Below, one piece after another: positions 7,550 through 19,792 of a stretch of DNA of 64,000 bases (within the stretch, counting starts at the first letter, position 1; each line of letters starts with the position of its first letter). The notes beneath the pieces were generated by a model. That model made no database searches. It was not told where the DNA came from and saw nothing but the letters and a program-made list of their open reading frames with translations. The DNA lies in assembly GCF_003931565.1 (NCBI RefSeq), contig NZ_RRYI01000003.1, forward strand, positions 1-64,000, given 5' to 3'. The position numbers and the translations under genes are program-made. The stretch is from Caulobacter sp. 602-1. Its GTDB lineage: Bacteria > Pseudomonadota > Alphaproteobacteria > Caulobacterales > Caulobacteraceae.

Positions 7550-8956
7550 CTACCAGGTAAAGGTCGTCGCCGCGCGCGCCGGGATGCTGGCCTTGAACCG
7601 CCGGCCGCCCTCGACGATGGCGAAATCCGCCGGCGTCTTGCCGGTGTTCAGCACCAGCAGCACCCGGCCGCCGTCGCGGTTCTGGAAGGCGACCGTTCGC
7701 AGGTCGCCGACCTTTTCCGGCGAGCCGATCCGCACCGCGCCGGGCTTCACGAAGCGGCTGGCCTGGCCGAAGGCGTAATATTCCTGGGTGCGGGTGATCG
7801 CGCCGCTCGTGCTGTCGATCGTCACCACCGGCCGGCAGTCGCCGCAGCCGCCGGCGTGTGGGCCGAACTTCTCGTCCAGGGCCAGGTTCCACATCAAGAC
7901 GCCGCGCGCGCCCCGACGGGTGGAGCCGATGATCAGCTGCTCGACCATCCACGAGAAGCTGTCGTCGAACTTGGGAGCCCATTCGCCGCCCGAGCACTCG
8001 GTGAAGAAGACGTCCTTGTCCGGATGGGCCGCGCGCACCGTCTCCATGGCCTCGACCTGGCCGGCATAACAGTGCCAGGCGACGCCGGCGACAAAGGCCC
8101 TGGCCTTGGCGTCGGCCAGAACGGTCAGCGGCTGCTGCGGCTGGTCCCAATTGTGGTCCCAGTCGAGCACCTTGGTCGCGATCTTCTCGCGTTTGAACAC
8201 CGGGGCCAGGTTCTCGCCGAAGAACCTGGCGCGGTCGGCGGGGAGCCAGCGCATGCCGGGATAGTTGTCCGGCTCGAAGTCGGGTTCGTTCTGGATGCTC
8301 AGATAGTCGGTGGGGACGCCCACCTTCCTGGCTTCCTTGATGTAGCGCGCGAAGAAGTCGGCATAGACCGGATAGGCCTCGGGCTTCAGTTGCCCCTTCA
8401 CCAGCGAGCCGGTGGTCTTCATCCAGGCCGGAGCGCTCCACGGCGAGGCCATGACCTTCAGCTCGGGATTGATCTTCAGGGCCGCGCGCACGGTCGGGAA
8501 GACGAATTCCTGCGGCCGCTTCAGCGAGAAGTGCTGCAGCGCCGGATCGGCCGCGCCACCCGGCGCGTCGTCCAGGCTGTAGTGGTCCAGCGAGAAGTCC
8601 GAGGCGCCGATCGTCACGCGCGTGAAGCTGAAGCCGAGGCCGCCCTCCCCGCGCCCATAGAGCTCGCGCAGCAGGCCGTCGCGCTGGGCCGGGGTCAGCT
8701 TGTTCTGGATCAGCCAGGCCGAGGCGTCGGTGATCGCCGCGCCGAAGCCGACCATGGTCTGGTGGCGCTCCTTGGCGTCGACCGCGACCACAGGCAGGCC
8801 AGCGACCGCATCGGCCGCCACCACGCCCGACGGCGCCTGGGCGGCCAGCAGTTGGCTCTTGTCGCCGGTCGTCGTCCAGCTGTGCAGCTTGGGCGCGGCG
8901 TGGGCGGGGGCCGCCGCGACGAGCGCGGCGGCGAGGGTGAGGGAGAGGGTTCGCAT
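7550..8956 (-). CDS. Glycoside hydrolase family 30 (glucosylceramidase / beta-1,6-glucanase-like)
   Basis: An exported 468-residue retaining glycosidase. The signal peptide spans 1-20 (cleavage after AHA). The TIM-barrel family pattern VGFGAAITDASAW appears at about 69-81. The acid/base is Glu224 in LSIQNEPDFEP and the nucleophile is Glu320 in FFTECSGGEW. A short beta-sandwich tail containing VLLVLNTG closes the protein. GH30 members cut beta-1,6-glucan, glucosylceramide or xylan; bacterial forms of this shape are often beta-1,6-glucanases, but the substrate is inferred. The ATG shares its A with the TGA of the GH3 gene, showing tight coupling. It is the last gene of the LacI-TBDR locus. Confidence 0.9.
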   Translation of the reverse strand: MRTLSLTLAAALVAAAPAHAAPKLHSWTTTGDKSQLLAAQAPSGVVAADAVAGLPVVAVDAKERHQTMVGFGAAITDASAWLIQNKLTPAQRDGLLRELYGRGEGGLGFSFTRVTIGASDFSLDHYSLDDAPGGAADPALQHFSLKRPQEFVFPTVRAALKINPELKVMASPWSAPAWMKTTGSLVKGQLKPEAYPVYADFFARYIKEARKVGVPTDYLSIQNEPDFEPDNYPGMRWLPADRARFFGENLAPVFKREKIATKVLDWDHNWDQPQQPLTVLADAKARAFVAGVAWHCYAGQVEAMETVRAAHPDKDVFFTECSGGEWAPKFDDSFSWMVEQLIIGSTRRGARGVLMWNLALDEKFGPHAGGCGDCRPVVTIDSTSGAITRTQEYYAFGQASRFVKPGAVRIGSPEKVGDLRTVAFQNRDGGRVLLVLNTGKTPADFAIVEGGRRFKASIPARAATTFTW

Positions 8957-11259
8957 CACGGCCTCCGCGACCAGGCCTTGAGGTTGGCCTTGCCGGTCAG
9001 GGCCATGTCCCCGGCGTGGCTTCCGACATAGAGCGGATAGGTCCCGGCCGGGATCGTCCAGCCGGGCTTGGCGACGTCGTAGTCGGCCAGCAGGCGCGGC
9101 TCGACGGTCAGGGTGACGCGCTCGGTCTGGCCCGGCGCCAGGTCGACCTTCTCGAAGCCCGCCAGGCGAACCATCGGCTTGCGCTTGCCCGCCGTGACGT
9201 AGAGCTGCGGGGTGTCGGCGCCGGCGACCTTGCCGGTGTTGGTGACGTCGAAGCTGACCTTCAGGCCCGCCGCGTCCTCGACCTTGAGGTTCTTGTAGGC
9301 GAAGGCCGTGTACGACAGGCCATAGCCGAACGGATAGAGCGGCTGACGCTTCTCTTGGGCGTACCAGCGGTAACCGACAGCGGCGCCCTCCGGATACTTT
9401 ACGGCGAAGCCCTTGATGCCATCGACCTTCTGGCCGGCGCGACGGGCGTCGTCGATGGCGGCCTGCTCGGCGAAGCCCGGCGCGCTGCCGCGCGGGGCCT
9501 GGTCGGCGGACTTCGGGAAGGTCATGGCCAGGCGGCCCGACGGGTTCACGTCGCCGAAAAGGATGCGGGCGATGGCCTGGCCGCCGCGCTGGCCGGGATA
9601 CCAGGCCTGCAGCACCGCCCCGACGCGATCCAGCCAGGGCATGGTCACCGGACCGCCGGTCTCCAGCACGACGATGGAGTGCTTGTTGGCGGCGGCGACG
9701 GCGTCGATCAGGGCGTCCTGATTGTCCGGCAGGGCGATCGACGGCGCGTCCTGGGCCTCGGTCTGCCAGTGCCAGGCGAAGACGATGGCGACGTCGGCGT
9801 CCTTGGCCGCGGCGGCCGCGGCGGCCGGGTCCTTGCCGTCGACATAGATCACTTCAGCGCCCGGCGCGGCGGCCTTAATCGCCTCCAGCGGCGAGGAGGC
9901 GTGCCAGGTGACGCGGACGAACGAGGCGGCCTCGCCGCCGTCCAGCGGGATCTCGACCGGCGCGCCGCCGACCGACCGCACCTGCGACGAGCCGCCGCCC
10001 GAGATCACGCCGACATCGGCATGGGCGCCGATCAGCACGATCTTCTTGGCTGTCTTGGCCAGGGGCAGCAGATTTCCGTCGTTCTTCAGCAGCACCGAAC
10101 CGCGCTCGGCCACGGCCTGGGCGACCTTGGCGTGGGCGGCGTAGTCGATGGGCTGGGCGGTCGTCGGGGTCGGGTTGTCCATCAGGCCCGAGGTGATCAC
10201 GCCATGCAGGATGCGCCGGACCATGTCGTCGACGCGCGCCTGGCTGACCTCGCCTTTGGCCACGGCGGCCTTCAGGTCGTCGCCGAAGAAGATCTGGGTG
10301 TCCAGTTCCTGGCCCGACTGCTGGTCGAGCCCCGCCAGCGCGGCCTTCACCGTGCTGTGCACCGCGCCCCAGTCGGACATGACGAAGCCCGGATAGTTCC
10401 AGTCGCGCTTGAGCACCTTGTTCAGCAGGAAGTCGTTCTGGCAGGCCCAGTCGCCATTGACCTTGTTGTAGGCGCACATGACCGAGGCCGGATTGCTCTT
10501 CTCGATCGCGATCTGGAAGGCCAGCAGATCGCTTTCGCGCAGGTCGGCCTCGCCAATTTGCGCGTCCATCACGTGGCGGCCGGTCTCCTGGGCGTTGAGG
10601 GCGAAGTGCTTGATCGTCGAGACGATGTGGTTGGACTGCACGCCCTTGATCTGCTCGCCCGCCATTTCGCCGGCCAGCAACGGGTCCTCGCCGAGATATT
10701 CGAAGTTGCGACCGGCCCACGGGTCGCGGGTCAGGTTGACGCCGCCGGCCAGCAGGACGTTGAAGGTCTTGGCGCGGGCTTCGGCGCCGATCATCGCGCC
10801 GCCGGCATAGGCCAGCTTGGGCTCGAAGGTCGAGGCCAAGGCCAGGCCCGACGGCAGGGCGGTGGCGACGTCGCCCTTGCGCTGCTCGACCTGGTTGGCC
10901 ACGCCCAGGCTGGCGTCGCTTTCCCGCAAGGTCGGGATCTTCAGGCGCGGCACGCCCGGCACATAACCGGCCGAGGGGATCATGTCGGCCGGCGCCGGCT
11001 TGGTGTTCGGCGGGAACAGGCCGTGCAGATATCTGATTTTTTCATCAAGCGTCATCTGCTTGACGAGGGCGTCGGCGCGGGCCCAGGCCGGGTCGTTGGC
11101 GCGCGGGGCCAGCGGGGCGCTGTCCTTGGTCGGCATGACCTGGGCGAGCGCCCCGGATCCAAAGGCCAGGGACATCGGGGTCAGGGCGAGCAACGCCACG
11201 GCGGCGGTGGTCCGGCACAGGATCCGCAGGGCGGATGAAGGCTGGGCGGCGGTCGTCAT
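8956..11259 (-). CDS. Glycoside hydrolase family 3 beta-glucosidase
   Basis: An exported 767-residue beta-glucosidase-type enzyme that should release glucose from beta-linked oligosaccharides in the periplasm. A hydrophobic signal lies at about 18-40 (ending ALA). The GH3 barrel includes KHFALN (217-222) and the nucleophile Asp296 in GFVMSDWGA. The (alpha/beta)6 domain and a C-terminal fibronectin-III-like domain (about 640-750) follow, a BglX-like order. The start at 11259 is 22 bases after the halogenase-like gene. With GH30 it forms an endo/exo pair: GH30 would cut the polymer or conjugate and GH3 would finish the oligomers. Confidence 0.92.
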   Translation of the reverse strand: MTTAAQPSSALRILCRTTAAVALLALTPMSLAFGSGALAQVMPTKDSAPLAPRANDPAWARADALVKQMTLDEKIRYLHGLFPPNTKPAPADMIPSAGYVPGVPRLKIPTLRESDASLGVANQVEQRKGDVATALPSGLALASTFEPKLAYAGGAMIGAEARAKTFNVLLAGGVNLTRDPWAGRNFEYLGEDPLLAGEMAGEQIKGVQSNHIVSTIKHFALNAQETGRHVMDAQIGEADLRESDLLAFQIAIEKSNPASVMCAYNKVNGDWACQNDFLLNKVLKRDWNYPGFVMSDWGAVHSTVKAALAGLDQQSGQELDTQIFFGDDLKAAVAKGEVSQARVDDMVRRILHGVITSGLMDNPTPTTAQPIDYAAHAKVAQAVAERGSVLLKNDGNLLPLAKTAKKIVLIGAHADVGVISGGGSSQVRSVGGAPVEIPLDGGEAASFVRVTWHASSPLEAIKAAAPGAEVIYVDGKDPAAAAAAAKDADVAIVFAWHWQTEAQDAPSIALPDNQDALIDAVAAANKHSIVVLETGGPVTMPWLDRVGAVLQAWYPGQRGGQAIARILFGDVNPSGRLAMTFPKSADQAPRGSAPGFAEQAAIDDARRAGQKVDGIKGFAVKYPEGAAVGYRWYAQEKRQPLYPFGYGLSYTAFAYKNLKVEDAAGLKVSFDVTNTGKVAGADTPQLYVTAGKRKPMVRLAGFEKVDLAPGQTERVTLTVEPRLLADYDVAKPGWTIPAGTYPLYVGSHAGDMALTGKANLKAWSRRP

Positions 11260-11281
11260 GGCGTTACTCCGTCGAAGACGT

Positions 11282-12811
11282 CTAGGGGACTGGAACAGGG
11301 GTCGCCGGCAACGGCGGGGCCTGGCACGCGCGGGCCACGAACTCGGCGTGGCTGGGCATCACGTTCAGGCACTTGCCGATGACCGTCTGGATATTGCCGA
11401 GGTGGGTGGCGATGGCTTCGTCCGAGTGGACGCGGACCAGCGGGTCGTAGCCGCGCGGGATCACGCCCTGGCCCAGGAACACCTGGATCCAGCTCTCCTC
11501 GGTGAACAGTTCGTCGTCCTCGCGGAACACCCGGCCGTTGGCGCGGAACAGGTCCATCTTCCGCTGCAGGGTGGCGGGGACCTCCATGTCGCGGCAGTGG
11601 CGCCAGAACGGCGTATCGTCGCGCTCGGTGGCCTTGTAGTGCAGGATGATGAAGTCGCGGATGCGCTCGTATTCGAAGTCGCTCTGACGATTGAACTCGT
11701 CGACATTGGCCTGATCGAAGCCGCCATCGGGCAGCAGGCGGACCATGCGGATCACGGCCGACTGGATCAGGTGCAGGCTGGTCGACTCCAGGGGCTCCAT
11801 GAAGCCGCTGGCCAGGCCGATCGAGACGCAGTTCTTGTTCCAGATCTTCTTGCGCTTGCCGGTCGTGAAGCGGATGCGCAGCGGGTCGGCGCGCTGGGCG
11901 CCGTCCAGGTTCGCCAGCAGGACGCGCTCGGCCTCGTCGTCGTCGATATACTGGCTGGAATAGACATGGCCGTTGCCGGTGCGGTGCTGCAGCGGGATCC
12001 GCCACTGCCAGCCGGCGTCGTGGGCCGTCGAGCGGGTATAGGGCGTGAAGTGCGCCGAGCGCTCGGTCGGCACGGCGATGGCCCGGTCAGCCGGCAGCCA
12101 GCGGGTCCAGTCCTCGTAGCCGGTCTTCAGGGCCTGCTCGATGATCAGGCCCCGGAAGCCCGAGCAGTCGACGAACAGGTCGGCGGCGATGACCTCGCCG
12201 TCGTCCATGGTCACCGACTGGACGAAGCCGTCCTCGGGCCGCAGCGTCACGTCGACGATCTTGCCCTCGCGCCGCTGCACGCCGCGCGCCTGGGCGTAGG
12301 TCGACAGGTGCTTGGCGTAGAGGCCGGCGTCGAAGTGGAAGGCGTGGGCGATGTGGCCGATCGGCGACTCCGCCATGTCAGCCCGGGCGCGCATGAACTT
12401 GTCCTGCAACGCCATGGCGTTGTTGATCGACAGGGCGTTGAAGTCCGGGGCCTGGCCCAGCTCGCGCATCCGCAGCCAGTATTGGTGAACGCGCAGCCAG
12501 CCCAGGTCCTGGCCCAGCACGCCGAAGCCATGCAGGTAGCTCTCGCCCTTGCGGAACCAGTTGCGGAACTCGATGCCCAGCTTGAACGAGCCCTGCGTCT
12601 TGCGCAGGAAGTCGTCCTCGTCGAGGCCGAGCAGTTCGTTGAATTTCTTGATGGCGGGGATGGTCGCCTCCCCGACCCCGACCGTGCCGATCTGCTCGGA
12701 CTCGATCAGGACGATCTCATAGAGACCCTGGAACAGCCGCGAACACAGCGCCGCCGTCATCCAGCCGGCGGACCCGCCTCCGGCGATCAGTATCTTCTTG
12801 AGCGGTTGCAA
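11282..12811 (-). CDS. Flavin-dependent tryptophan-halogenase family protein
   Basis: A 509-residue FAD enzyme of the PrnA-like halogenase family. It has the N-terminal dinucleotide motif GGGSAG (11-16), the halogenase WxWxIP motif (268-273), the lysine equivalent to PrnA Lys79 at Lys77 in GSFKLGIEF, and FMEPLEST (about 337-344) near the substrate site. The TTG at 12811 is preferred because GGGAGG sits 7 bases upstream. An ATG at 12826 lies upstream of that ribosome site and has none of its own. Family members beside TonB receptors in Caulobacterales and Xanthomonadales have mostly unknown substrates. Its place between receptor and glycosidases is characteristic but unexplained. Confidence 0.9.
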   Translation of the reverse strand: MQPLKKILIAGGGSAGWMTAALCSRLFQGLYEIVLIESEQIGTVGVGEATIPAIKKFNELLGLDEDDFLRKTQGSFKLGIEFRNWFRKGESYLHGFGVLGQDLGWLRVHQYWLRMRELGQAPDFNALSINNAMALQDKFMRARADMAESPIGHIAHAFHFDAGLYAKHLSTYAQARGVQRREGKIVDVTLRPEDGFVQSVTMDDGEVIAADLFVDCSGFRGLIIEQALKTGYEDWTRWLPADRAIAVPTERSAHFTPYTRSTAHDAGWQWRIPLQHRTGNGHVYSSQYIDDDEAERVLLANLDGAQRADPLRIRFTTGKRKKIWNKNCVSIGLASGFMEPLESTSLHLIQSAVIRMVRLLPDGGFDQANVDEFNRQSDFEYERIRDFIILHYKATERDDTPFWRHCRDMEVPATLQRKMDLFRANGRVFREDDELFTEESWIQVFLGQGVIPRGYDPLVRVHSDEAIATHLGNIQTVIGKCLNVMPSHAEFVARACQAPPLPATPVPVP

Positions 12812-12925
12812 CCACCCGCCTCCCATTGAGCAAAGGTCGGGGACGCCTCAGGCGCCCCCGCCTCCGTTGGTTCTTGCCTGGCGAGCCCAAGCCGCGGGGG
12901 AGCGCGGCTCGGCTCAGCCTTCTGC

Positions 12926-15775
12926 TTAGAACCGATAGTTCACGCCGAACAGGATCTGACGGCCGTACTTCTCGTAGGTCTCCGGCAGCGAACCGCCGCT
13001 CTGGGTCTTGGTGCCGCCGCCGTCGAGACCCAGGCGCGTGCGGTACGGCGAGTCCGTCAGGTTGTTGACCTGCAGCAGGATCCCGAGGTTCTCCAGCGGA
13101 CCGTCGTTGAAGGTGTAGCCGATCTGGGCGTCCACCTGCTTGTCGGCCAGAATCTCGGTGAAGCCCCGGGTGGCGAACAGTTGCACCACCTCGCCCTTGA
13201 AGGCCGAGCGGTAGCGCTGGCTGATGCGCGCCTGGAAGCCGCCGCGCTCGTAGTAGCCGGTGACGTTGTAGACCGTGCCCGACAGGCCCGGGATGCGGAC
13301 TTCCTGGGTGGGATCGGGGTTGTTGGTCGGATTCAGGTTCGACTTGGTCAGCGATAGGCTGCCCTGGACGCCGAAGCCCTTCAGGACATCGGCGAACTGG
13401 CCGAAGTCGACCGCGCCGCTGAACTCCACGCCCTTGACCACGCCGCCATTGCCGTTGGCCGGCAAGGTCATCTGGCCGATGTTGTTGATGATCGTCCCGG
13501 CCGGGATGTTGGCCCCCGCCGGCAGCGGAATGCCCGTGAAATCGAACGTGCCCGACTGCTGGTAGATGTAGGTGTCGAGCTTCTTGTAGAAGCCGGCCAC
13601 CGACACATAGGTCGCGGGGCTGACGTACCACTCGTAGGCCAGGTCCGCGGCCTTGGCCATCCAGGGCTTCAGGTGCGGATTGCCGCCCGAGGCCGACCAC
13701 GGATTGACCGTCGTGCCCGGACCGCAGGGCTGGCTGGAGCAGACCAGGCCGTTGAAGCCGGGGGTCACGTTGGCGCGCATGTCGTCCATGCGCGGACGGG
13801 CCATGGTCTTGGACAGGGCGAAGCGCAGGCGGTGGCCGCCGCCCAGGTCGTAGATCAGGTTCAGGCTGGGCAGGACGTCGGTGTAGTCGTCCTTGGCGTT
13901 GATCTTGGTCGGGACGATCGGCTGCCCGGCTTCGGTGCCGTTGATCACGACGCCGCTCGACTCCTGCTTCTGCTGGACCACCTGGACGCCGACATTGCCG
14001 CGCAGGTCGCCGCTCTGGAAGTTGGCCTTGGCGAAGAAGGTCGTGACCTCCTCGGTGATGTCCCAGTTCTTGTCGTAGTAGTTGGCGTCGAGGATCGGCG
14101 ACGAGTTGTAGTACTTCTTCCAGACGTCGCCGATCTTGACCGAGAGGACGTCGCCGAAGCCGGCGAAGCCCAGATTGGTCGGCGAGACCAGGTCGGCCTG
14201 GTCGACATAGACCTGCTGGCGGCCGTTCTTCAGGAACAGGTCGTTGTCCGAGACGGTCTTGCCCTTGTCGCGCTTGGTGTAGTTCACGCCGCCCGACAGC
14301 TGGGTGATGAAGCCGTCCATCTCGTGCTCGAGCCGGATGTCGACGGCCTTGACGTCTTCCTTGACGTGCGGATAGCGGATCGCGCCGTCGTGACCCCAGC
14401 CGCCCCACGGGGCGCGGTCGCCCAGGGTGACCTTGCTGGCGTCGGCGTAGTTCAGGCCCTCGTCATATTGCGAGAACCCGTTGTCGGCGACCTTGAAACC
14501 GATGGTGTCATAGGTGCGGCCCACGTCCGCCGTCGACCCGGTGACCCCGCCCACGCCACGGCCGTAGCCGGCGTAGGTCTCCATGATCTGTTCCTTCCGC
14601 TTGTTCGACGAATAGGACAGGTCGGCGACCAGTTTGGTCTTTTCGGTCAGCTGGAATTCGTTGTTGAAGCCGGCCGAGAACAGCTGGTCCCGGCGCGTAT
14701 TGTAGTCGTTGCGCACGATCGGCACGCCGTTGTTCAGCGTGCCGCCGGTGGCGAACTTCGAGCCGCCCATGTCGGCGGTCGTGACGTTCGAATAGGTCAC
14801 GCCGTCGGCGTAAGGGTTCGAGAACCACTGGGCGCCGCGCGTCGTCTCCTTCTGATTGAAGGTCGAGTAGTACAGGTCCAGCGTCGAGTGGATCCGGTCG
14901 TTCGGCTGGTACTCGAAGATGCCGATGACCGCGTCGCGCTTGTTGTTGCGCGAGACGGCCATGATCTCCTGGCCGTTCAGCATCAGGGCGCCGTCGGCGC
15001 TGTCCGGCGAGGTCGATTCCGGCGGGAAGGCCTCATAGCCATAGGCCTTGTAGCGCTTCACCTGCGAGGGCGAATCCAGGTGGGCGTAGCCCAGGGCCAC
15101 GCCGATCGTGCCGTCGGCGAACTGGTTGATATAGCTGGCGCTGAAGCGGCCGCCCACGTTGTGGGAGTCATCGTTCAGCTTCTTGCCCGAGGTCTTCTCG
15201 CCGCGCAGGTTCAAGGCCAGGACGCGCTTGCCGTATTCCAGCGGGCGCACGGTGCGCAGGTCGGCGGTGCCCGACAGGCCCATGCCCGAGACCTGGGCGT
15301 CGGGCGTCTTGTAGATCACGACGCTGGACAGCAGTTCCGACGGATACTGGTCGAACTCGACGGCGCGGTTGTCGCCGGAGCTGGCTTGCTGGCGGCCATT
15401 CAGCAGCGTGGTGGTGAAGTCGGGCGCGAGACCCCGGATCGAGATCACCTGGGCGCGGCCGTTGACCCGCTGGGCGGCCAGACCCGGCAGGCGGGCGATC
15501 GACTCGGCGATCGAGACGTCCGGCAGCTTGCCGATGTCCTCGGCCGAGACGGCCTCGACGATCGAGGTCTCGTTCTTCTTGATGTTGATCGAGTTCTGGA
15601 TGCCGGCGCGGATGCCCGTCACCACGATCGCGTCGACCGTGTCGTCGGCCTGCGAGGCCGGCGCGGCCTCTTGCGCCCAAGCCGAGCCGGCCAGGGCCAG
15701 GCTGATCGCGGCCGTGGACGCGGTGACATAGAATTTCTGGACGGACGGACGCGTCCCGCTCTTGCGGTTTCGCAT
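12926..15775 (-). CDS. TonB-dependent receptor (carbohydrate locus)
   Basis: An outer-membrane transporter of 949 residues, likely importing oligosaccharides. The signal peptide covers about 1-35 (ending SAWAQ). A TonB-box-like segment DAIVVTGIRAG is followed by a plug with DIGKLPDVSIAESIARLPGL, ISIRGLAPDFTTTLLNGR and SSVVIYKTPDAQ. A long barrel ends in the terminal Phe expected for outer-membrane insertion. The start at 15775 has GGGGAGAG upstream; the open frame continues to 15985 but without signal or RBS. Tandem LacI-type operators lie 71-98 bases upstream. The DIGKLPDVS plug is typical of sugar-related receptors in Caulobacter and Xanthomonas. Confidence 0.93.
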   Translation of the reverse strand: MRNRKSGTRPSVQKFYVTASTAAISLALAGSAWAQEAAPASQADDTVDAIVVTGIRAGIQNSINIKKNETSIVEAVSAEDIGKLPDVSIAESIARLPGLAAQRVNGRAQVISIRGLAPDFTTTLLNGRQQASSGDNRAVEFDQYPSELLSSVVIYKTPDAQVSGMGLSGTADLRTVRPLEYGKRVLALNLRGEKTSGKKLNDDSHNVGGRFSASYINQFADGTIGVALGYAHLDSPSQVKRYKAYGYEAFPPESTSPDSADGALMLNGQEIMAVSRNNKRDAVIGIFEYQPNDRIHSTLDLYYSTFNQKETTRGAQWFSNPYADGVTYSNVTTADMGGSKFATGGTLNNGVPIVRNDYNTRRDQLFSAGFNNEFQLTEKTKLVADLSYSSNKRKEQIMETYAGYGRGVGGVTGSTADVGRTYDTIGFKVADNGFSQYDEGLNYADASKVTLGDRAPWGGWGHDGAIRYPHVKEDVKAVDIRLEHEMDGFITQLSGGVNYTKRDKGKTVSDNDLFLKNGRQQVYVDQADLVSPTNLGFAGFGDVLSVKIGDVWKKYYNSSPILDANYYDKNWDITEEVTTFFAKANFQSGDLRGNVGVQVVQQKQESSGVVINGTEAGQPIVPTKINAKDDYTDVLPSLNLIYDLGGGHRLRFALSKTMARPRMDDMRANVTPGFNGLVCSSQPCGPGTTVNPWSASGGNPHLKPWMAKAADLAYEWYVSPATYVSVAGFYKKLDTYIYQQSGTFDFTGIPLPAGANIPAGTIINNIGQMTLPANGNGGVVKGVEFSGAVDFGQFADVLKGFGVQGSLSLTKSNLNPTNNPDPTQEVRIPGLSGTVYNVTGYYERGGFQARISQRYRSAFKGEVVQLFATRGFTEILADKQVDAQIGYTFNDGPLENLGILLQVNNLTDSPYRTRLGLDGGGTKTQSGGSLPETYEKYGRQILFGVNYRF

Positions 15776-15845
15776 TGTAGCTCTCCCCTCTGAAGCCGCT
15801 CCTGGGCGAGCGACCGCCTTATTCTCGTGAGACCAACCTTGGCCG

Positions 15846-15873
15846 TGGAAGCGCTTCCATGGAAGCGCTTCCA
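15846..15873. promoter_or_regulatory. Two abutting perfect LacI-family operators
   Basis: The 14-base palindrome TGGAAGCGCTTCCA occurs twice with no gap (15846-15859 and 15860-15873). The central CG and GxAAGCGCTTxC shape match LacI/GalR-family operators. It sits 71-98 bases before the receptor ATG, in the promoter zone of the receptor-halogenase-GH3-GH30 operon and downstream of the LacI-type gene on the same strand. Repression relieved by a glucan-derived sugar is the natural inference. Confidence 0.85.
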
Positions 15874-15933
15874 GTAGCACGCCGGGCGACAACGTTGTCA
15901 AGGTCGAAACCGGAAAGCGGGTATGGACCGCTA

Positions 15934-15982
15934 GAGCCCTTTCCGATCTGATCGCATCAATCAGATCGGATAAAAAGGGCTC
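15934..15982. repeat. Intergenic hairpin repeat, part 1
   Basis: GAGCCCTT (15934-15941) pairs with AAGGGCTC (15975-15982). Inside, CCGATCTGAT (15943-15952) pairs with ATCAGATCGG (15960-15969) around a 7-base loop. It resembles alphaproteobacterial intergenic palindromes and is adjacent to a second hairpin. Confidence 0.65.
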
Positions 15983-15996
15983 CATTTCAAAAGTTT

Positions 15997-16046
15997 AGAG
16001 CATTTTTCCATCCGATAACCGTTTCACACTTATCGGAAAATGCTCT
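15997..16046. repeat. Intergenic hairpin repeat, part 2, abutting the LacI-type stop codon
   Basis: AGAGCATTTT (15997-16006) pairs with AAAATGCTCT (16037-16046). CCGATA (16012-16017) pairs with TATCGG (16031-16036). Its right edge overlaps the stop codon of the LacI-type gene by two bases, so on the minus strand it could also terminate that transcript. It is of the palindrome type found repeatedly between genes in this bacterial class. Confidence 0.6.
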
Positions 16047-17085
16047 AGCGCGCGGCCGTGGTCTGGCGGTGAACCACGGCGTGGTCAAGCTGCTGGAAGA
16101 CGGGGGTGGAAGCGGTGTTGGCCCCGGTCAGTCGGGCCACCAGCATCTCGACGGCGCGTTGGCCCAGCACCTTCACCGGTTGATGCACGGTGGTCAGCGG
16201 CGGCCAGACGATGGCGGCGACGGGGGCGTCGTCGAAGCCCGTGATCGACAGGTCGCGCGGAATGCTCAAGCCCCGCGCGTGGGCGGCCGACAGCACGCCG
16301 GCGGCCATGTCGTCATTGGCGCAGACCAGGGCGCTGGGGCTTAGCGGATGGTCCAGCAGCTGCGGCGCAAGGTGCGCGCCCGAGCGGAAGGTGAAGTCGC
16401 CGCGCGCCATGATCCAGGCCTCCTGGCCCAGGCTTTCCTCGGCCAGGGCGCGCTCGAACCCCTTCATGCGTCGGTCGGCCGAGAGGTGGCCCTCCAGTCC
16501 GGCGATGAAGCCGAAGCGCCGGTGACCCAGGCGCAACAACTCCCGCGCCATGTCGTAGCCGCCGGCCTCGTCGTCGACGCCGACGCCGTCGGCGATCCCG
16601 CGGCCCGGTCCGCCCGGCGACACCGTCACCACCTTGCAGCCTTGGGCCAGGGCCGCCTGGATCAGCGAGACGTCGTCGCTATAGGGGGGCGACAGGATCA
16701 GGCCCTCGCAGCGCTGGCTGGTGATCAGGTCCAGCACCCGCTTCTCGCGGTCGGGGGTCTGCTGCGGGACGTTCTGGACCAGCACCTGGTAGCCCAGCGT
16801 CAGGCAGGCGCGCAGGGCTCCCAGTTCCAGGGCGGATTCATAGTAGGAGTTCGGATCGTTCTCGAGGTCCGAGGCGAAGACAAAGGCCAGCAAGCGGCTG
16901 GCCCCGCCCGCCAGACTGCGGGCCTGCGGATTGACCTTGTAGTCCAACTGCTCGATGGCCCGCATGACCCGGGCCCGGACCTCGTCGCGGACATTGGGGC
17001 CGCCGTTCAGCACCCGAGACACCGTCACGCGCGCCACGCCCGAAACGCGGGCGACGTCGTCGATGGTCGGCCTCTTTCCGGTCAA
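16045..17085 (-). CDS. LacI-family transcriptional regulator
   Basis: About 346 residues. The N-terminal LacI helix-turn-helix reads PTIDDVARVSGVARVTVSRV, with hinge residues ending QARSLAGG. A periplasmic-binding-like sensor follows, with LILSPPYSDD, GVDDEAGGYDMAREL and CANDDMAAGVL segments. The TTG at 17085 is favoured by GGAG seven bases upstream; an ATG at 17112 or 17136 would add 9-17 residues. The gene precedes the TBDR-halogenase-GH3-GH30 operon on the same strand. It almost certainly binds the tandem palindromes at 15846-15873 and responds to a sugar from the imported glycan. Confidence 0.9.
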   Translation of the reverse strand: MTGKRPTIDDVARVSGVARVTVSRVLNGGPNVRDEVRARVMRAIEQLDYKVNPQARSLAGGASRLLAFVFASDLENDPNSYYESALELGALRACLTLGYQVLVQNVPQQTPDREKRVLDLITSQRCEGLILSPPYSDDVSLIQAALAQGCKVVTVSPGGPGRGIADGVGVDDEAGGYDMARELLRLGHRRFGFIAGLEGHLSADRRMKGFERALAEESLGQEAWIMARGDFTFRSGAHLAPQLLDHPLSPSALVCANDDMAAGVLSAAHARGLSIPRDLSITGFDDAPVAAIVWPPLTTVHQPVKVLGQRAVEMLVARLTGANTASTPVFQQLDHAVVHRQTTAAR

Positions 17086-17207
17086 AGCACACTCCACTGG
17101 ATGTGGGACCATCGTCGGGAAGCCCCGTCCGCACAAGCGATACGCGTCTTCATGGCGAAGGGTTCGCGCGCAAGAGTTCGCACAAGATGGCTTAGCCGAT
17201 CAACCAA

Positions 17208-17222: not shown

Positions 17223-17403
17223 GTGGAGCGGGGGCACGGCGTCGCGGCGAAACGCCGGCGCCAGAAGCCTTGGCTCCACAAGTTTTTGCGACAAAGCAAT
17301 GGCAAAGCCACGCTAGCGATCCATACTTGAAATTCGATAATTCATCATTGAGTCAACAAGCACCGAGGAATTCGCCCAGACCCATTTCGCTTTTGCGAAA
17401 TTG

Positions 17404-17418
17404 ATAGATCCAATCTAT
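17404..17418 (+). promoter_or_regulatory. OxyR-type binding site upstream of ahpC
   Basis: ATAGATCCAATCTAT matches the OxyR half-operator ATAGnTnnnAnCTAT at every fixed position. It ends about 80 bases before the ahpC ATG. Only one half-operator is convincing; the second expected 7 bases further on is poor. OxyR control of ahpC is established in many proteobacteria. No oxyR gene is in this window. Confidence 0.65.
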
Positions 17419-17499
17419 TCCGACCAGAAGTTTTATCAATTTGCTCAATCACGAGTCGGGCCTGTAACAGGACCCATCTTCTTCCAACCGGAGCGCCTC

Positions 17500-18063
17500 A
17501 TGTCGCTGATCAACACCGAGATCAAACCCTTCACCGCCCAGGCCTACAAGGACGGCAAGTTCGTCACGGTCAGCGAAGCCGACACCAAGGGCAAGTGGTC
17601 GGTCTTCTTCTTCTATCCCGCCGACTTCACCTTCGTCTGCCCGACCGAGCTGGAAGACCTGGCCGACAACTACGACGTCTTCACCCGCCTGGGCGTCGAG
17701 ATCTATTCGGTGTCGACCGATACGCACTTCTCGCACAAGGCCTGGCACGACAGCTCGCCGGCCATCGGCAAGATCAAGTACACCATGATCGGCGACCCGT
17801 CGGGCGTGGTGACCAACAACTTCGAGATCATGCGCCCGGGCGTCGGCCTGGCCGACCGCGGCACCTTCCTGGTCGACCCGCAAGGCGTGATCCAGTTCAT
17901 GGAAGTCACCGCCGAAGGCATCGGCCGCAACGCCATCGAGCTGCTGCGCAAGATCAAGGCCGCCCAATACGTGGCCAGCCACCCGGGCGAAGTCTGCCCG
18001 GCCAAGTGGGAAGAGGGTGAAAAGACCCTGGCCCCGTCGCTCGACCTGGTCGGCAAGATCTAA
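17500..18063 (+). CDS. ahpC: Alkyl hydroperoxide reductase subunit C (2-Cys peroxiredoxin)
   Basis: Reduces hydrogen peroxide and alkyl hydroperoxides in the cytoplasm, and is recycled by AhpF. The 187-residue length matches the family. The peroxidatic Cys47 is in [11 protein letters not shown] and the resolving Cys166 in GEVCPAKW. The conserved [10 protein letters not shown] precedes the active Cys. The ATG at 17500 has GGAG 6 bases before it; the frame stays open to 17401, across the OxyR-like site, so the longer start is rejected. ahpF follows after 142 bases. Confidence 0.97.
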
Positions 18064-18205
18064 AGCCTAACGACTACCCGGACCGCCGGCCGTTCATTCG
18101 GACCGGTCGGCGGCCCGGCCCTTGATCGTACGCCGCGTTCGATCCTCCTCCCCCCGAAAATCGAACGCCACCTTTCTCTCCCCCTAGCCTTTTTGGGAGC
18201 GCGCC

Positions 18206-19792
18206 ATGCTGGACGCCGGTCTGAAGACCCAGTTGACCACCTATCTGCAGAACCTGCGCCAGCCGATCGAACTGGTCGCCTCCCTCGCGGATGACGCCGG
18301 TTCGAAGGAGATGCTGGCCCTGTTGGAAGACGTCGCCGCGACGTCGGACAAGGTCAGCCTGAACCTGTCGGGCGACGACGCCCGCAAGCCCTCCTTCGCC
18401 ATTACCCGCGCCGCCGGTGACGCTTCGGTGCGCTTCGCCGGCCTGCCGCTGGGTCACGAGTTCACCTCGCTGGTGCTGGCCCTGCTGCATGTCGGCGGCC
18501 ACCCGCCGCGCCTCGACGCCGAGGTCATCGAACGGATCAAGGCGCTGGACGGCGACTACCGCTTCGAGACCTATTTCTCGCAATCCTGCCAGAACTGCCC
18601 GGACGTGGTGCAGGCTCTCAACACCATGAGCGCGCTCAATCCGCGCATCAGCCACGTCGCCATCGACGGCGCCCTGTTCAAGGACGAGGTCGAGGCCCGC
18701 CAAGTCATGGCCGTGCCGACCATCCTGCTGAACGGCGAGGCCTTCGGCCAGGGCCGCATGGATGTCGAACAGATCCTGGCCAAGCTGGACGCCGGCGCGG
18801 GCGACCGCATGGCCGAGAAGATCAAAGCCAAGGACGCCTTCGAGGTGCTGGTCATCGGCGGCGGCCCCGCCGGCGCGGCCGCGGCGGTCTACGCCGCCCG
18901 CAAGGGCATCCGGACCGGGGTCGCGGCCGAGCGGTTCGGCGGCCAGGTGCTGGACACCATGGCCATCGAGAACTTCATCTCGGTCCCCCACACCGAGGGT
19001 CCGAAAATGGCCGCGGCGCTGGAGCAGCACGTCAAGGAATACGACGTCGACATCATGAACCTGCAGAAGGCTGTCGGTCTGGTTCCGGCCAAGACCGCCG
19101 GCGGCCTGATCGAGGTCAAGCTGGAGAACGGCGCCAGCCTGAAGTCGCGCACCGTCATCCTGTCGACCGGCGCCCGCTGGCGGAACGTCAACGTTCCCGG
19201 CGAGGCCGAGTACCGCAACAAGGGCGTGGCCTACTGCCCGCACTGCGACGGCCCGCTGTTCAAGGGCAAGCGCGTGGCGGTGATCGGCGGCGGCAACAGC
19301 GGCGTCGAGGCGGCCATCGACCTGGCCGGCATCGTCGCCCACGTGACGCTGATCGAGTTCGACAGCCAGCTGCGCGCCGACGCCGTCCTGCAGCGCAAGC
19401 TGGCCAGCCTGCCGAACGTCAAGATCGTCACCTCGGCCATGACCACCGAGATCCACGGCGAGAACGGCAAGGTCTCGGGCCTGTCGTACAAGGACCGCAA
19501 CCAGGACAGCGTCAACCGCGTGGACCTGGAAGGCGTCTTCGTGCAGATCGGCCTGGTTCCCAACACCGAGTGGCTGAAGGACTCCGGCGTCGCCCTGACC
19601 AATCGCGGCGAGATCGAGGTCGACTATCGCGGCGAAACCTCGCTGCCCGGCGTCTTCGCCGCCGGCGACGCGACGGTCACGCCCTACAAGCAGATCATCA
19701 TCGCCATGGGCGAGGGCGCCAAGGCCTCGCTGTCGGCCTTCGACTACCTGATCCGCCAGGTTCCGGCGAACGAAGAGGCGGAGGCGGCCTAA
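18206..19792 (+). CDS. ahpF: Alkyl hydroperoxide reductase subunit F
   Basis: An NADH-dependent FAD disulfide reductase that recycles AhpC. The 528 residues carry two N-terminal thioredoxin-like folds with redox pair Cys128/Cys131 (SCQNCPD). A FAD motif [10 protein letters not shown] follows at about 218-227, then the active pair Cys344/Cys347 (YCPHCDGP), the NADH motif [10 protein letters not shown], and the C-terminal [12 protein letters not shown] segment. A GGGAG ribosome site lies just before the ATG. The standard ahpCF order and spacing support a shared peroxide-stress unit. Confidence 0.97.

Follow-up and report, generated by a model that had tools for sequence, protein, structure and literature searches.

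We propose that an operon of Caulobacter, repressed by LacI and serving a beta-glucan, encodes a cytoplasmic flavin-dependent halogenase (FDH) that would tailor a protein of its own locus, the TonB-dependent receptor (TBDR) being the first candidate. This reading is tentative: we give it a probability of about 0.35, held there because residue-level tests on the receptor gave it no support. The glycan, most likely beta-1,6-linked, would enter through the receptor and be broken down by GH30, then GH3; LacI would repress the operon, FDH being co-induced with the receptor. In the cytoplasm FDH would halogenate, probably brominate, an aromatic side chain, with the receptor precursor as the first substrate to consider.

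The enzyme family is already known. What is new is that its genes follow TonB receptors, appear co-regulated and are absent from defined, near-identical loci. Through this linkage the receptor becomes a candidate, open to testing, for the natural target that this enzyme family lacks so far; receptor halogenation, if true, would to our knowledge be a new kind of outer-membrane protein modification.

Layout of the operon

The window, i.e. the whole 64,000-nt stretch of DNA analysed here, has Caulobacter as its nearest named relatives in similarity searches. Five genes follow each other on its minus strand in the order LacI, TBDR, FDH, GH3 and GH30. All five ORFs are open and match their family profiles, so the set of same-strand genes described in the original prediction is real:

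16045-17136, minus strand: LacI-family regulator (PF00356 and PF13377); the ORF starts at TTG, the ATG at 17112 being the likelier start
15996-16047, no strand: palindromic repeat between LacI and TBDR, with 16-nt arms 20 nt apart
15871-15901, minus strand: promoter-like TTGACA...GCTAC, touching the operator
15846-15873, no strand: putative double LacI-type operator, two abutting perfect palindromes TGGAAGCGCTTCCA
12926-15775, minus strand: TBDR of the TIGR01782 type (585.8 bits); the ORF as listed reaches 15985
11282-12826, minus strand: FDH of the BrvH/Xcc4156 type (PF04820, 675.9 bits)
12581-12583 and 11786-11788, minus strand: FDH catalytic codons K82 and E347, read from the sequence
8956-11259, minus strand: GH3 beta-glucosidase-type enzyme (family profile; signal peptide by eye)
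7550-8959, minus strand: GH30 enzyme (signal peptide by eye; nearest family, endo-1,6-beta-glucanase BT3312)

The ORFs are separated by 59 bp (LacI-TBDR), 99 bp (TBDR-FDH), 22 bp (FDH-GH3) and -4 bp (GH3-GH30). The last three gaps leave no room for a small peptide gene after the TBDR, and a small peptide precursor encoded in the operon was therefore rejected. By eye, signal peptides are present in TBDR, GH3 and GH30, and their position places the TBDR start at the ATG at 15775. FDH has no signal peptide: its N-terminus opens directly with the FAD-binding strand. The predicted structure of the TBDR has a mean pLDDT of 82.8, and a Foldseek search confirms the TBDR fold and nothing more.

The operon is probably a beta-1,6-glucan-type uptake system. 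This assignment follows from the nearest NCBIfam family of GH30, NF053856 (endo-1,6-beta-glucanase, GH30_3, Bacteroides BT3312), which scores 315.9 bits, under its curated cut-off of 700. The best PDB match of the enzyme is 5ngk, which we take to be BT3312, and catalytic-type glutamates are present in its QNEP (225) and TEC (321) motifs. Carbohydrate-utilisation loci with a TBDR (CUT/PUL-like loci) share with the window the receptor, secreted glycosidases, a LacI regulator and an operator; here, in contrast, FDH stands between receptor and glycosidases, and relatives add Cupin_8, DUF6445 or SapC.

Three further features lie in or around the operon. The palindromic repeat at 15996-16047 is a dispersed genome element (its 14-bp end has 16 exact matches, against 0 for the reversed control) and is perhaps a terminator. 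The TBDR-FDH gap (12827-12925) holds, by eye, a strong hairpin without a T run. AhpC-type and AhpF genes (17401-19792) lie divergently upstream of LacI, with no evident tie to the operon.

A recurrent operator precedes the receptor gene

The operator element TGGAAGCGCTTCCA is a 14-bp perfect palindrome, and its two abutting copies span 28 bp upstream of the TBDR. They are the only matches in the window at up to 2 mismatches (0.30 expected) and the only exact matches genome-wide; one more site has one mismatch (L260), with no glycan gene evident near it. No second copy was found before the window FDH. The adjoining TTGACA...GCTAC resembles the Caulobacter housekeeping promoter; our sigma-70 scan did not list it at 15871-15901.

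The palindrome recurs in relatives. In the clade of GH30-type TBDRs it is present in 31 of 32 upstream regions, two of these with one mismatch; the 32 were drawn from 39 TBDRs, the other 7, without a recognisable box, being left out. Among 80 named loci fetched by FDH similarity, 37 carry an exact copy, and all 37 belong to a set of 42 loci (L067-L107, L109) in which FDH shares 66% identity or more with that of the window. Two of the 42, L072 and L106, come from the laboratory Caulobacter isolates DSM 9893 and OR37, which carry the operon. Three of the remaining five are fragments without the upstream region (L073, L074, L086), one has a single mismatch (L095) and one has no copy (L103). The exact palindrome is absent from the other 38 of the 80 loci and from 31 further loci, and it occurs in a single one of 80 loci of unlinked TBDRs, L235, which is itself an FDH-less sister operon.

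In seven loci (L089, L093, L100, L101, L102, L104 and L105) an operator copy precedes a separate GH30 or GH3-GH30 unit. Five of these, L100, L101, L102, L104 and L105, keep GH3-GH30 apart under its own operator, and FDH remains directly behind the TBDR; in L100, L101 and L105 the TBDR-side copy is exact, in L102 it differs at one position, and L104 lacks an exact one. The LacI-type operator before the TBDR, which recurs in relatives, fits a LacI-controlled TBDR glycan operon, and the LacI of the window would bind and repress at the TGGAAGCGCTTCCA double operator. With this operator before the TBDR and none before FDH, the earlier suggestion of one glycan-uptake operon including an intact halogenase gene is supported as far as sequence can tell.

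The halogenase is of the BrvH type

FDH scores 675.9 bits against PF04820, far above the cut-off of 21. The FAD motif GGGSAGW at 16-22 (GxGxxG at 16-21), WQWRIP at 273-278, K82 and E347 are all intact, as had been claimed for the FAD and WxWxIP motifs and the PrnA-type lysine. In an alignment of 173 distinct FDH ORFs, the catalytic Lys is kept in 169 and the Glu in 162. A YYHG-type motif, the Trp4 motif of tryptophan halogenases, was not seen by eye in the FDH sequence. The closest solved structures are 9luq, 6y1w and 6frl, of which we take 6y1w to be Xcc4156 of Xanthomonas campestris.

The third, 6frl, is BrvH according to PMC7336383; this enzyme comes from Brevundimonas BAL3. BrvH and Xcc4156 have the same FAD, Lys and WxWxIP motifs as the window FDH, and the ATIPAI and HGFGV motifs of the latter are group C forms as tabulated in PMC8269204. 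By these motifs and matches the window enzyme is a BrvH-type, group C flavin-dependent halogenase, and it looks like a capable one. According to PMC5945002 and PMC7336383, BrvH halogenates indole and not tryptophan, both BrvH and Xcc4156 accept free indole in vitro, relatives of the window FDH brominate in vitro, and what BrvH and the Xanthomonas halogenases act on natively is described as unknown; a peptide substrate is suggested for BrvH and Xcc4156 (PMC7336383). The accessible text of these papers and of PMC8269204 makes no mention of TonB, whereas the window FDH sits beside a TBDR.

Halogenase genes follow receptors, not glycans

Annotations at Xanthomonas and Caulobacter TBDR loci mention 'tryptophan halogenase', and titles and abstract openings of the open-licence literature do not describe a TBDR-FDH linkage. 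We quantified it in seven genomes of the genus, including the window's own (one of the seven, G019, has no FDH), using the best 150 of 163 TBDRs. Of 46 FDHs, at least 39 have a TIGR01782 TBDR no more than 5 kb away, against at most 3.2 by chance, and at least 23 have one within 600 bp, against at most 1.2; the recurrence of halogenase-like genes beside TonB receptors in Caulobacterales, previously asserted, is thereby confirmed. Among the best 150 of 163 TBDRs, 28 are FDH-linked. A single genome holds up to 16 FDHs; in the seven genomes surveyed for linkage these genes mostly occupy different TBDR loci, which is what locus-specific targets would predict.

In a search of 75 genomes of the genus, receptors 82-100% identical to that of the window have an FDH adjacent in 17 of 17 assessable loci, the window included. 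A halogenase gene placed elsewhere in relatives, which the original prediction had named as refuting it, was thus not seen; two further orthologous loci, L264 and L286, end at a contig border. Across 41 genomes, the 10 without FDH have 0-3 TBDRs and the 31 with FDH have 0-18, two of them none, in counts that saturate near 17 (high values being lower bounds) and are uncorrected for kinship. Class-wide searches matched 1 and 2 of 385 genomes, under criteria that proved too strict to be informative.

The linkage extends beyond the genus. For 76 of the 80 loci obtained through FDH similarity, the matched FDH lies no more than 5 kb from a TBDR; the two genes share a strand in 62 of these and are on opposite strands in 14. 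The exceptions are L136, whose matched FDH is 6.1 kb off as the last of five in a row that starts at the TBDR, the contig fragments L073 and L086, and L126, which shows no TBDR. FDH-TBDR adjacency is seen in Caulobacterales, Sphingomonadales, Massilia/Ideonella-type Betaproteobacteria and Cellvibrio. On a receptor tree (FastTree, which gave long-branch warnings) the linked TBDRs fall in several groups: labels change 14 times, compared with 69 times after shuffling. A few 'linked' rows are second TBDRs near an FDH, and four TBDRs labelled unlinked sit inside or beside linked clades. Against a receptor-tailoring reading stand up to 7 of the 46 FDHs, without a TBDR within 5 kb, and L126.

Four loci were noted in passing. 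L174 (G000:C197) and L177 (G007) hold FDHs from a different subfamily (scores near 430 bits), away from TBDRs among the matches listed; the neighbour is an MCRA-family gene in L174 and a protoglobin chemoreceptor in L177. In L175 (G002), perhaps an amino-sugar locus, an FDH has PTS enzymes as neighbours (an EI/HPr/EIIA fusion and EIICB), and the distance to a TBDR is 7.8 kb. In L176 (G007:1927500-1942500) the FDH adjoins a divergent LacI gene and two large ORFs, the scanned one of which has no Pfam match; no TBDR lies within 98 kb among the matches listed.

At TBDR loci the FDH family is found alongside GH3/GH30, GH13/GH97 plus an MFS transporter, GH10/GH43, or SapC/Cupin_8; enzymes of starch, xylan and beta-glucan type are thereby represented. 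FDH thus follows the receptor and not the glycan. The same spread makes an aryl group in the glycan an unlikely point of the enzyme, and it sets back the glycan or its aglycone as the FDH substrate. A broader alternative has FDH halogenating a small aromatic molecule, which either comes in through the TBDR system or is made alongside it; this could be an aglycone, an indole or phenol of plant or fungal origin, or a signal. The co-location of FDH and TBDR genes and the cytoplasmic N-terminus of FDH would suit such a substrate, as would the activity of BrvH and Xcc4156 on free indole in vitro (PMC5945002 and PMC7336383). A common aryl ligand is, however, not expected across starch-, xylan- and beta-glucan-type loci, and a single enzyme per genome would suffice, yet many copies are kept at separate TBDRs. 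We consider this explanation doubtful, and the best placed of the alternatives. Should receptors prove not to be halogenated, a metabolite would be indicated.

Of the 80 loci, 30 have a Cupin_8 gene within 9 kb of the matched FDH, 21 a DUF6445 gene and 4 a SapC gene. The HxD...H triad, the iron site of Fe(II) oxygenases, is kept in 43-44 of 45 Cupin_8 and 22-23 of 23 DUF6445 sequences. The window locus has none of the three; two other FDH loci in its genome have SapC, one of them with Cupin_8 as well. A locus-specific protein target, with the receptor first, appears most likely to us, given that the receptor stays constant as a partner, that FDH is cytoplasmic and has multiplied along with receptor loci, and that other side-chain-type oxygenases accompany it. 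A wider form of this proposal, in which we place little confidence, is that glycan TonB receptors of Proteobacteria have dedicated, locus-specific oxidative tailoring sets, made of BrvH-type halogenases with Cupin_8, DUF6445 and SapC proteins, that would halogenate and hydroxylate residues of the receptor; this would be the native role of BrvH and the Xcc enzymes.

Receptor residues and co-divergence

Whether linked and unlinked columns are compared overall or by clade, none of the aromatic TBDR columns sets all FDH-linked clades apart. The column test yields mostly non-aromatic plug positions that follow kinship, the best being S158 (0.77 vs 0.08); the best aromatic column, Y225 (0.74 linked vs 0.24 unlinked), is lost in clade B. 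An aromatic target in the receptor was set aside: neither these column tests nor a low-power comparison of sister receptors 93-97% identical to each other show an aromatic position that goes with FDH. Columns with at least 90% Trp number 1, 5 and 2 in linked clades A, B and D, 12 and 14 in the small, close linked clades C1 and C2, and 0, 0 and 0 in three unlinked clades. This excess is not specific to Trp, because most unlinked clades are poorer in Tyr and Phe columns as well.

FDH copy number correlates with Trp density over the linked TBDRs (rho 0.41, driven by clade D and uncorrected for kinship), with rho 0.11 inside clade D; Tyr falls and Phe rises with copy number too. Clade D has the highest Trp density, 21.5 per 1000, the other linked clades ranging from 9.0 to 16.4. 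Co-divergence of FDH and TBDR was likewise set aside: its rho is 0.60 over 105 pairs, but within genomes two agree (0.51 over 7 pairs, 0.54 over 8) and two disagree (-0.77 over 4, -0.21 over 5), G002 and G013 being left out for too few pairs. As to the earlier idea of a surface indole or aryl modification, a surface aromatic residue may still be modified, yet the residue-level tests came out negative or weak.

These negative receptor tests, together with the same linkage logic, would also fit an FDH whose target is not the receptor but a different protein, be it encoded at the locus or part of the TonB machinery (GH3, GH30, TonB or an inner-membrane partner). The glycosidases, however, change between loci and are sometimes in a separate transcription unit, no single TonB partner gene stood out as constant in surveys not aimed at one, and we find this alternative unlikely.

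Tandem arrays and the question of chemistry

Receptors of clade D, which comprises GH10/GH43 loci and their relatives, have 2.7 FDHs on average. The catalytic Glu is lost in 11 of the 173 FDHs, all of them in arrays and 10 of the 11 second from the TBDR; three also have Ser for Lys, and one, a short ORF, has a gap there. These Glu-less FDHs, possibly non-catalytic partners, are:

L143, 7030-8472
L138, 7007-8455
L144, 6202-8436
L137, 7027-8466
L118, 8511-9989
L132, 11497-12969
L136, 5470-6948
L136, 8524-9987
L128, 6345-7670
L156, 7520-9847
L157, 3402-4883

That 11 of 173 relatives lack the Glu and are yet kept in arrays would suit a flavin enzyme that acts in the cell as a monooxygenase or oxidase and not as a halogenase, as would weak matches to QhpG, LodB and GoxB, which are flavin-dependent protein maturases. 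Those matches reach 26.5, 19.0 and 18.2 bits against cut-offs of 240, 400 and 400, so FDH is not a member of these families; it would resemble them, and MibH, as a flavin enzyme working on peptide or protein side chains, if its target is a protein. MibH acts on a peptide, according to PMC8269204. K82, E347 and WQWRIP are intact in the window, and relatives brominate in vitro (PMC5945002 and PMC7336383), which makes the non-halogenating enzyme quite improbable. As for the flavin oxidase raised in the original prediction, the kept Lys/Glu pair counts against a dead remnant, while motifs leave halogenation itself unproven.

Sister operons without the halogenase

A sister group of seven loci shares the operator, and its proteins are 68-69% (LacI), 51-53% (TBDR), 85-86% (GH3) and 71-74% (GH30) identical to those of the window. 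In six of the seven (L291-L296), GH3 directly follows the TBDR, and searching the 13.7-15.4 kb read at each turned up no FDH. The seventh (L297) has an FDH 51% identical to the window's between TBDR and GH3, and the best 14 matches of this FDH all lie within the 42-locus group, which makes loss in the six the simpler reading. Six genomes therefore keep LacI, operator, TBDR, GH3 and GH30 without FDH: the enzyme is accessory and dispensable.

The seven sister receptors share 93-97% identity irrespective of FDH, and none of their aromatic residues tracks the enzyme, in a test whose power is low because of that very identity. A strictly needed aromatic target in the receptors of this group is thus not supported by their sequences. 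That FDH is a passenger of the operon, with no part in handling the glycan, agrees with these six genomes and with the lack of a residue-level tie, and is nevertheless the least likely of the explanations, as linked pairs occur in Alpha-, Beta- and Gammaproteobacteria, in several TBDR clades and in either orientation, and survive rearrangement of the locus.

In all seven sister loci (L291-L297) a hairpin with a T run, resembling a terminator, is visible by eye immediately behind the TBDR stop codon and ahead of FDH or GH3; it perhaps lowers downstream expression.
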